A DNA stretch of 25,651 nucleotides, from IMG/VR virus record IMGVR_UViG_3300032296_002896, positions 1-25,651 of that record. One strand, written 5' to 3'. The position numbers and the translations under genes are program-made. The notes under the pieces were generated by a model, which was not told where the DNA came from, did no database searches, and worked only from the letters and a program-made list of their open reading frames with translations. Numbering within the stretch: the first letter of the stretch is position 1; every line of letters starts with the position of its first letter. Shown one piece after another: positions 2,924-24,831 of this stretch. Source of the stretch: a virus.

Positions 2924-3124
2924 ATGAAATTCACACATATAAATGAATTAAAAACAGTTTTAACTAACGAGTTAAAAACAGAACACTTAAACGAGAAAGC
3001 TTTGAATGAAATGTGGAATGTATTAAATTCACCATCAAACAAAGAACATGAAGTAACTAAAGAACATTTAGTTAACTATTATACAACTTGTTTACGTTTT
3101 GAACAATTAAAAGATAATATATAG
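2924..3124 (+). CDS. Small helical hypothetical protein upstream of the tRNA block
   Basis: The 66-residue protein is charged and predicted mostly helical (KTVLTNELKTEHLNEKALNEMWNVL, then a second helix after an SPSNKEHEV turn). It has no signal peptide, membrane segment or recognised domain. It lies directly behind a host-type promoter. Its TAG stop (3122-3124) shares two bases with the 5' end of the tRNA at 3123, so gene and tRNA must come from one transcript and processing of the tRNA would cut within the stop codon of the message. No function is proposed. Confidence 0.65.
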   Translation: MKFTHINELKTVLTNELKTEHLNEKALNEMWNVLNSPSNKEHEVTKEHLVNYYTTCLRFEQLKDNI

Positions 3125-3196
3125 CGGGGTGGTAGCAGTTGGTAGCTCGTCAGTCTCATAAGCTGAAGGTCGCAAGTTCGAGTCTTGCCCCCGCTA
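3123..3196 (+). tRNA. tRNA-Met (CAT), initiator-like body
   Basis: Acceptor AGCGGGG (3123-3129) pairs with CCCCGCT (3189-3195), discriminator A3196. The anticodon arm is TCAGT/CTCATAA/GCTGA (3150-3166) with anticodon CAT at 3157-3159, and the T-arm is GCAAG/TTCGAGT/CTTGC (3172-3188). CCA is not encoded. The body resembles bacterial initiator tRNA (GCGGGGTGG, TGGTAGCTCGTC, GAAGGTCG blocks as in E. coli tRNA-fMet). However, the initiator hallmarks are absent: 1:72 is an A-T pair instead of a mismatch, and the anticodon stem lacks the three G:C pairs. The D-stem (AGC/GCT, extendable to GAGC/GCTC with T3133 bulged) carries one extra base. It may act as an elongator Met tRNA, or as an isoleucine tRNA if C34 is modified to lysidine. 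Confidence 0.85.
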
Positions 3197-3420
3197 CAAT
3201 AAGTAAGGGATACTTAGCAGTCTTTTATCCAAGACTCATTTAACAATGGATAGGGTTAAAAAACGCCTCCCAAAGGTAATCGATTCGGGATAAAACAGTA
3301 GATAGGTTCATCACTGCCGACGTAAAGAACTGACTTTTTCATCGGGGATGCCCAGCAGGTTTTTCAAATAGCAAAAAAACCGATATGACTACTCATCTGT
3401 AATCTCAAGGTGAGGAATAC
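3197..3420 (+). ncRNA. Non-coding, hairpin-rich segment between tRNA genes
   Basis: No credible coding frame covers this 224-nt stretch. Several hairpins can be drawn: AGTCTT/AAGACT (3219-3224 with 3231-3236); a 7-bp stem CAGT-GAT/ATC-ACTG with one bulge (3296-3303 with 3310-3316); GGTTTTT/AAAAACC (3358-3364 with 3375-3381); and ATCGG/CCGAT (3341-3345 with 3380-3384), which would enclose the previous one. TATCC (3226-3230) can pair either with GGATA upstream (3208-3212) or GGATA downstream (3248-3252), suggesting alternative structures. No tRNA, tmRNA or group I intron core could be fitted. It may be a stable phage RNA, comparable in position to the species 1 and 2 RNAs within the T4 tRNA cluster, but that is only positional. 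Confidence 0.4.
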
Positions 3421-3518
3421 ACTCAAGTGGCGGAAGCGAGACTGTTGCAACAGTCCGATAGTAGACGCTAAGGAAACGAGTTCGAAAGAACATATTGGTG
3501 CGAGTCCAATCTTGAGTA
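3421..3518 (+). ncRNA. tRNA-like RNA, 98 nt, no normal anticodon arm
   Basis: The ends form a perfect tRNA-type acceptor: ACTCAAG (3421-3427) with CTTGAGT (3511-3517), discriminator A3518. ATTGG/TGCGAGT/CCAAT (3494-3510) is a T-arm with a 7-nt loop, although G replaces the usual T at position 55. After the acceptor, TGGCGGAA (3428-3435) and TAGACGC (3462-3468) match the two halves of a tRNA-Leu D-arm. Between them sits an insert containing the 16-bp palindrome GACTGTTGCAACAGTC (3440-3455). The rest includes a GTTC-GAAA-GAAC hairpin (3480-3491), like a class II variable arm. No 5-bp stem with a 7-nt anticodon loop can be drawn. It may be a decayed or rearranged Leu-type tRNA, or a tRNA mimic. 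Like the first tRNA, it is followed by CAATA. Confidence 0.5.
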
Positions 3519-3523
3519 CAATA

Positions 3524-3597
3524 GCGCTTTTAGCTCATTCGGTTAGAGCAACTGACTCATAATCAGTAGGTGCCTGGTTCGATCCCAGGAAGGCGCA
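3524..3597 (+). tRNA. tRNA-Met (CAT), elongator-like
   Basis: All four arms are regular: acceptor GCGCTTT/AAGGCGC (3524-3530 with 3590-3596, one T-G pair), a D-arm with GCTC/GAGC, anticodon arm ACTGA/CTCATAA/TCAGT (3551-3567) with anticodon CAT at 3558-3560, and T-arm CCTGG/TTCGATC/CCAGG (3573-3589). The discriminator is A3597 and CCA is not encoded. The TAGCTCA...GGTTAGAGCA body is that of an elongator tRNA. The CAT anticodon could read Met, or Ile (AUA) if C34 is converted to lysidine; AUA is frequent in the structural genes here. Confidence 0.93.
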
Positions 3598-3609
3598 CAA
3601 AGTATTTTT

Positions 3610-3632
3610 AGAGTGGCTTGCCACTCTTTTTT
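3610..3632 (+). terminator. Rho-independent terminator closing the RNA block
   Basis: AGAGTGG (3610-3616) pairs with CCACTCT (3621-3627) around CTTG, followed by a run of six T (3627-3632). It is a strong intrinsic terminator 13 bp after the last tRNA. Confidence 0.9.
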
Positions 3633-24378: not shown

Positions 24379-24831
24379 ATGAGTAAATGGTTATATAAAG
24401 GTAAAGAAGTTAATAACATTGAAGACTTCGGAGAACAAACTCCATTTGGATTTGTTTATCTTATAGGAAATACTATTACAGGTAAAATATATATAGGTAA
24501 AAAATTCCTACAACATAAAAAAACCAAAAAACTAGGTAAAAAAGCTATGGCTGAACAAACTGGTCCTGGTCGTAAGAAAACTAAAGAAGTTACTTACGCT
24601 GAATCAGATTGGAAAACATATTGGGGTAGTTGTAAACCATTACATGAAGATGTAGCATTGTTAGGTGAAGATAAATTCTATAAAGAAATTTTAGAATTAG
24701 CATGGAATTCAAAACATCTATCATACCTTGAAGCTAAATATCAATTTACATTATGTGTATTAGAAAAAGATAGTTACAACGATAATATACAAGCTAGATA
24801 TTTTAAAAAAGACTTGGCTTTTAATTCATAA
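24379..24831 (+). CDS. GIY-YIG-like endonuclease
   Basis: The 150-residue protein has the GIY-YIG core in a divergent form: FGFVYLIGNTITGKIYIGKK (residues 23-42) supplies the two tyrosines (Y27, Y38) and the IYIG strand. After a lysine-rich insert there is WKTYWGSCKPL (79-88) and YLEAKYQF (116-123), with E118 placed like the catalytic metal-binding glutamate. The usual arginine in the first helix is not obvious; lysines (41, 42) may substitute. Such small nucleases occur in T4-like phages as Seg-type homing enzymes or host-DNA degraders. It starts four bases after the structural gene and lies 16 bp upstream of the primase. No separate DNA-binding domain is visible. Confidence 0.7.
   Translation: MSKWLYKGKEVNNIEDFGEQTPFGFVYLIGNTITGKIYIGKKFLQHKKTKKLGKKAMAEQTGPGRKKTKEVTYAESDWKTYWGSCKPLHEDVALLGEDKFYKEILELAWNSKHLSYLEAKYQFTLCVLEKDSYNDNIQARYFKKDLAFNS

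Follow-up and report, generated by a model that had tools for sequence, protein, structure and literature searches.

Two late RNAs of phage T4, RNA C and RNA D, have no explained function (PMC9697503), and the Pseudomonas phage PAK_P3 makes sRNA2, which is among its strongly expressed late transcripts and in which its authors noted only an 11-nt stretch of transfer RNA (tRNA) T-loop, describing the T4 band C and D RNAs as unexplained (PMC4933390). GOLLD and ROOL, further structured RNAs found close to phage tRNA islands, form homo-oligomers through kissing loops (PMC12286853), while certain tRNA-Gly isoacceptors of Staphylococcus aureus have lost the GG of the D-loop and are thought to escape translation (PMC4052509). 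Here we describe a 98-nt RNA at positions 3421-3518 of the virus record IMGVR_UViG_3300032296_002896, which resembles tRNA-Leu, has no anticodon, and is embedded within an array of tRNAs. The window is the whole of this 25.7-kb record, the RNA elements and the terminator described in it lie on the plus strand, and L-numbers denote loci collected for comparison.

A type II tRNA body that lacks the anticodon arm

The 98-nt RNA has the plan of a type II tRNA body minus the anticodon. Its acceptor strand ACTCAAG (3421-3427) forms a perfect 7-bp stem with CTTGAGT (3511-3517), which is followed by discriminator A73 at 3518, with no CCA encoded. After an intervening TG, the D-stem strand GCG (3430-3432) pairs with CGC (3466-3468); these strands belong to the two D-arm halves, TGGCGGAA (3428-3435) and TAGACGC (3462-3468). 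The D-loop between them holds a hairpin insert, CG-A-GACTGT-TGCA-ACAGTC-CG (3437-3457), within which the 16-nt palindrome GACTGTTGCAACAGTC (3440-3455) forms a 6-bp hairpin with a self-complementary TGCA tip, and the equivalents of A18 and G19, where ordinary tRNAs have GG, follow at 3460-3461. An 11-nt linker, TAAGGAAACGA (3469-3479), replaces the anticodon arm and leads into a variable-arm hairpin, GTTC-GAAA-GAAC (3480-3491), separated by AT from the T-arm ATTGG-TGCGAGT-CCAAT (3494-3510), whose loop TGCGAGT (3499-3505) has G in place of U55 at 3500. The folding energy is -27.1 kcal/mol, with a z-score of -2.19 relative to shuffles. The first-pass annotation had reported the acceptor, discriminator, D-arm halves, palindrome and T-loop, all of which are present where it placed them, and had overlooked the variable-arm hairpin, the additional CG/CG pairs of the D-hairpin and a second structured RNA at 3199-3418.

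The same annotation had stated that no standard anticodon arm can be drawn, and this is borne out. D-stem and T-stem are only 25 nt apart, and part of that spacing (3480-3491) is the variable hairpin, so that a 17-nt anticodon arm is not possible; without an anticodon, the RNA could not read codons. In all 14 aligned members of the class the linker, which joins the D-stem to the variable hairpin, is 11-17 nt long; it is either nearly unpaired or a stub such as GGGT-AACT-ACCC, and in no member does it offer a 5-bp stem closed by a 7-nt loop. Compared with bacterial tRNA-Leu, the RNA shares the acceptor, U8, A14-A15, the GCG/CGC D-stem, U48, the long variable arm and A73; in contrast, the anticodon arm is gone, a D-loop hairpin is added, and A18/G55 stand for G18/U55.

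Searches for known RNAs agree with this picture. ARAGORN called the flanking tRNAs with CAT anticodons, which places the RNA between two tRNAs as first described, and nothing at 3421-3518, where an Rfam search at E<=5 also gave no match, including to the tRNA (RF00005), tmRNA and YrlA models; an ordinary tRNA with a clear anticodon is thereby ruled out. Of the RF00005 features, the 7-bp acceptor, T-arm and D-stem are present and the anticodon arm with its 7-nt loop is absent. A tmRNA (transfer-messenger RNA) is likewise ruled out, given a total length of 98 nt, a T-A rather than G3-U70 third acceptor pair and the lack of ARAGORN or Rfam tmRNA matches, and neither a group I intron nor a YrlA Y RNA finds Rfam support at the locus. 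An intron-containing or permuted tRNA was rejected as well: removing the D-loop insert restores no anticodon loop, and a D-to-T stretch shorter than that of a type II tRNA leaves no room for a hidden intron. When phages were searched with the 98 nt by blastn, only chance matches were returned, and a search of INPHARED phages for relatives gave only T-arm matches within ordinary tRNAs, those in Enterococcus being annotated tRNA-Gln.

Compensatory change across the class

Related loci were gathered through the downstream HD-domain protein and DNA patterns, yielding an alignment of 14 distinct full-length class members, which are related metagenomic sequences and not independent of one another; all relatives of the class are metagenomic contigs. 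This revealed that 98.7% of alignment cells are paired, with changes on both sides in 18 of 27 pairs and 57 doubly changed cells, compared with means of 83.5% paired and 14.4 doubly changed cells in 500 shuffles, and with 27-44% paired when partners were slid by 1-3 columns. The double changes fall alike on the acceptor (5/7 pairs, 100% paired), D-hairpin (6/8), variable hairpin (4/4, 100% paired) and T-stem (3/5), while the D-stem is invariant in the 14 sequences. RNAalifold independently recovered these helices together with two invariant pairs adjoining the D-stem. Judged from the alignment, then, the acceptor, variable hairpin and T-arm are kept by compensatory change, the D-stem is kept invariant, the elbow contact is altered but kept, and no member has an anticodon arm. 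The relatives thus support the conservation of acceptor and T-arm on which the original proposal depended, and the palindrome stem covaries too.

Under a covariance model of the class, full-length members score 87.7-112 bits, a range that comes largely from the sequences used to build the model, whereas ordinary tRNAs reach at most 37.6 bits. The best of these are tRNA-Leu, making derivation of the RNA from tRNA-Leu probable. U8, A14, A15 and U48 are invariant in 14/14 members and A73 is present in 13/14, which we take to be a Leu-like set.

An altered elbow and a self-complementary D-loop tip

We use the term shell for a tRNA-like body without an anticodon. Sibling shells of the same acceptor type combine the D-loop GATGGTAGACGC with a T-loop beginning TTC, whereas the 98-nt RNA class combines GATAGTAGACGC with TGC. 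Among the shells collected, the D-loop AG was seen only with T-loop TGC, and TGC was confined to this class except for one chance scanner match in L127. A coupled change from G18-U55 to A18-G55 with G19-C56 kept would be expected if the contact between D-loop and T-loop is maintained, and the switch may have been a single evolutionary event. The non-proteinogenic tRNA-Gly of S. aureus has the T-loop GTGC; it differs in being type I and in keeping its anticodon arm.

The tip of the D-hairpin is self-complementary in 14/14 class members (TGCA, CATG or CGCG), and perfect palindromes of at least 12 nt occur in 12 of 27 distinct D-arms of the family versus 0.4% of shuffles. As L089 retains only CATG and L148 retains AATGCATT despite differing outer stem bases, a role for the tip itself is favoured, and its sequence suggests that it may pair with a second copy, for example as a kissing dimer. 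The palindromic tip is not a universal feature, the variant in L009 and L020 lacking it. GOLLD and ROOL resemble this RNA in being structured and close to phage tRNA islands, but they are several hundred nt long and not tRNA-like, and neither has an Rfam match at this locus.

Shells in phage tRNA arrays

An anticodon-less shell is present in 24 of the 27 loci in which a tRNA-Met precedes the HD gene, in most cases 6-9 nt ahead of the following tRNA. The interiors of these shells differ: some are of the 98-nt RNA class and others of the L009 type, and those of class B contain a conserved NNNN-ATGGTTATAGCA-NNNN hairpin, the loop of which could, judged by eye, pair with CACTATAATGG.

A scanner for an acceptor, TGGYG and a T-arm, run over 3.9 Mb of loci, gave 281 distinct matches, ordinary type II tRNAs counted in, versus 2 in shuffled loci. 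Near-constant AGTCAGG-like ends (AGTCAGG or GGTCAGG/CCTGACT, A73) characterize 162 of these, mostly with the T-loop TTCGAAT, while their interiors fall into ~140 unrelated clusters and their lengths run from ~70 to ~170 nt. The search pattern had a part in choosing the tails and so biases the apparent constancy of the final 22 nt; it did not cover the 5' acceptor, the D-arm or the hypervariable interior. Tails number at most 11 per record, almost always on the same strand; several phages (L215, L394, L343 and others) carry more than one such shell, and some interiors recur as modules across shells. Of 164 AGTCAGG-type shells, ARAGORN read 34 as tRNAs, frequently assigning an odd anticodon or one of 2 or 4 bases; a small number of these 34 may be ordinary tRNAs with the same ends. 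In three records with AGTCAGG shells, 27-28 tRNAs and one or more tmRNAs were called as well. Separately, tmRNA genes were seen in the related phages L038 (2929-3297), L044 (1158-1546), L045 (3654-4042) and L047 (827-1215), some with the short tag AEYAVAA.

In three phage records, exact matches between shell interiors and other parts of the same record were not in excess, and the idea that shells act as antisense RNAs on the genome of their own phage was rejected accordingly. The AGTCAGG shell was also judged not to be of bacterial origin: in a collection of 84,980 genomes only 6 contigs contain the tail, all from metagenome-assembled genomes, 4 of them Bacteroidota, and these contigs look like binned phage DNA. 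The 98-nt RNA belongs to a large, apparently undescribed set of anticodon-less RNAs in phage tRNA clusters; a literature search, whose coverage excluded preprints and most subscription papers, found no paper that groups them.

Comparison with T4 RNA C and PAK_P3 sRNA2

T4 RNA C (species 1 RNA, band C; L449 909-1047) and the 98-nt RNA share a plan, namely a T-arm and acceptor pairing, no recognised anticodon and a place in a phage tRNA cluster, which RNA C ends as a stable non-tRNA RNA. T4 rnaC matches 718 phage records. Its tRNA T-arm has a stem that covaries in Citrobacter and Klebsiella phages (CCGGG/CCTGG/CCAGG), and one Enterobacter phage RNA C has the T-loop TGCATGC. Its acceptor is imperfect, CG[A/G]TTCG facing CGTT[T/C]CG with two T-T mismatches, the third pair changing from A-T to G-C in relatives. 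RNA C differs from the 98-nt RNA in its length of 139 nt and its D-side, and no sequence homology between the two was found, so that the likeness in gene order, tRNA - RNA D - RNA C in T4, where RNA D is another stable RNA, and tRNA - neighbouring RNA (3199-3418) - 98-nt RNA in the window, is one of analogy. RNA C nonetheless seems to be included in the set of anticodon-less phage RNAs.

The PAK_P3 sRNA2 locus likewise has, between two phage tRNAs, a 117-nt element (L466 12308-12424; PAK_P3 86307-86423) with a 7-bp acceptor (GCTGTGT/ACACAGC) and a T-arm; annotated sRNA2 starts inside this element and ends beyond it. Unlike the 98-nt RNA it encodes CCA and has a larger interior, and homology is limited to tRNA parts. 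No ARAGORN or Rfam call was obtained for the element. Four sRNA2 relatives keep the plan, with 7/7 acceptor pairs in three and 6/7 in one, and with changes on both sides.

Neighbouring features

In the array, a tRNA-Met (CAT, 3123-3197; called by ARAGORN, Rfam 43.3 bits) is followed by the second structured RNA, which we call 'up' (3199-3418), the 98-nt RNA, a tRNA with a CAT anticodon directly downstream at 6 nt (3524-3598; called by ARAGORN, Rfam 66.2 bits) and a predicted intrinsic terminator (3610-3632) that closes the array. The upstream tRNA scores low and is read with a 2-base anticodon in L016, L018 and L024, suggesting that it may be decaying. The RNA 'up' is a conserved element of ~215 nt, of which phage tRNA arrays yielded 41 distinct copies, and it has no Rfam match. 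Its readable flanks are mostly tRNAs or shells: shells adjoin it in 23 of 63 flanks, whereas they make up 15% of array units (p ~4e-5, for copies that are related and not independent). A single RNA spanning 3199-3518 was ruled out, a joint fold being no better than shuffles, and as 'up' occurs on either side of the shell in related arrays and can lie apart from it, the two are separate elements. The 5'-end TGAGTA of 'up' can pair with a nearby TACTCA or with an invariant CTACTCA near the 3' end, and AGAGAT in the 5' loop could pair with an invariant ATCTC; these pairings possibly represent a switch or a kissing contact, and 'up' may be a functional partner of the 98-nt RNA.

Among the window proteins, few of which were included in the searches, are T4-type baseplate wedge genes. 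An open reading frame at 24379-24831 has a GIY-YIG-like motif (GFVYLIGN...KIYIGKK), spotted by eye. The host can be assigned only loosely, to the Bacteroidota.

Discussion

Of the explanations offered in the first-pass annotation, that of a tRNA mimic is supported by the conserved fold, the missing anticodon, the co-varying elbow contact and the well-separated covariance model. We therefore favour, with a probability of about 0.55, a processed, non-decoding tRNA-Leu mimic that would work in trans by way of its acceptor and elbow. In line with this reading are the shells kept at 24 of 27 related loci, the strong late expression of the comparable PAK_P3 sRNA2 (PMC4933390) and the loss of D-loop GG in the S. 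aureus tRNA-Gly isoacceptors (PMC4052509). Host tRNA-processing enzymes would cut the RNA from the array transcript and it would receive CCA. Leucyl-tRNA synthetase (LeuRS) does not read the anticodon and may charge the RNA with leucine, A73, U8, A14, A15 and U48 being kept. The stable mimic would then occupy or bait a partner that binds the acceptor or elbow, never decoding; candidate partners are LeuRS, EF-Tu, RNase P, the CCA enzyme and a host defence enzyme directed at tRNAs. Its role could be to lure a defence enzyme as a decoy, to regulate a tRNA enzyme, to donate leucyl groups or to serve as a scaffold. Two points weigh against a mimic: the T-loop TGC may weaken contacts that it would need, and the RNA is dispensable in L018, where the shell copy adjoining the upstream tRNA (750-883) has an intact 3' half and no 5' half.

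Next in standing, although we consider it unlikely, is that the tRNA body is a scaffold for processing and stability whose variable interior or D-hairpin does the work, by base pairing, as a protein bait or as a homodimer. The 162 AGTCAGG/GGTCAGG shells, with near-constant ends around ~140 interior clusters, fit such an arrangement, as does the class B interior, which recurs in L446 within an AGTCAGG shell whose D-loop is normal, indicating that modules swap; the self-complementary tips and long D-arm palindromes point the same way. However, the 98-nt RNA retains almost no interior, and in three phage records the shell interiors lack an excess of exact matches to the rest of the record. Still less probable is processing punctuation, in which the tRNA-like body would be a cleavage signal for RNase P and 3' nucleases that frees its neighbours: the RNA does lie 6 nt from the next tRNA and adjoins 'up', which shells flank above expectation, yet ordinary tRNAs already serve this purpose, and the conserved D-tip, altered elbow and anticodon loss would be left unexplained. 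We rate slightly lower again a leucyl donor for a non-ribosomal reaction via a transferase, for which the Leu-type body and A73 are kept and the altered D-/T-loop contact resembles that of the non-proteinogenic tRNA-Gly (PMC4052509), but no transferase was identified among the few window proteins searched. A decayed pseudogene or the intron-loss intermediate suggested at first is very improbable despite the tRNA-Leu ancestry and the truncated L018 copy, given 57 compensatory doubly changed cells, conservation in many phages and a D-to-T stretch with no room for an intron. The further suggestion of a rearranged tRNA holds only loosely: one arm was lost and one hairpin gained, and the order of parts is still that of tRNA-Leu.

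More tentatively, and somewhat short of an even chance, these RNAs may form a large, unrecognised phage class, several to a genome, with constant acceptor and T-arm ends and hypervariable or modular interiors, working in trans either with the tRNA machinery of the host or against it; T4 RNA C and PAK_P3 sRNA2 would have been its first sightings, and the 98-nt RNA a lineage whose D-loop hairpin is self-pairing. Many phage RNAs are missed or wrongly labelled by annotation pipelines, as the few AGTCAGG-type shells called by ARAGORN illustrate. T4 and PAK_P3 would be tractable models for such a class, and RNA C, which has been without a function since the 1970s, would, if the shared plan does define a class, turn from a curiosity into a comparative problem.
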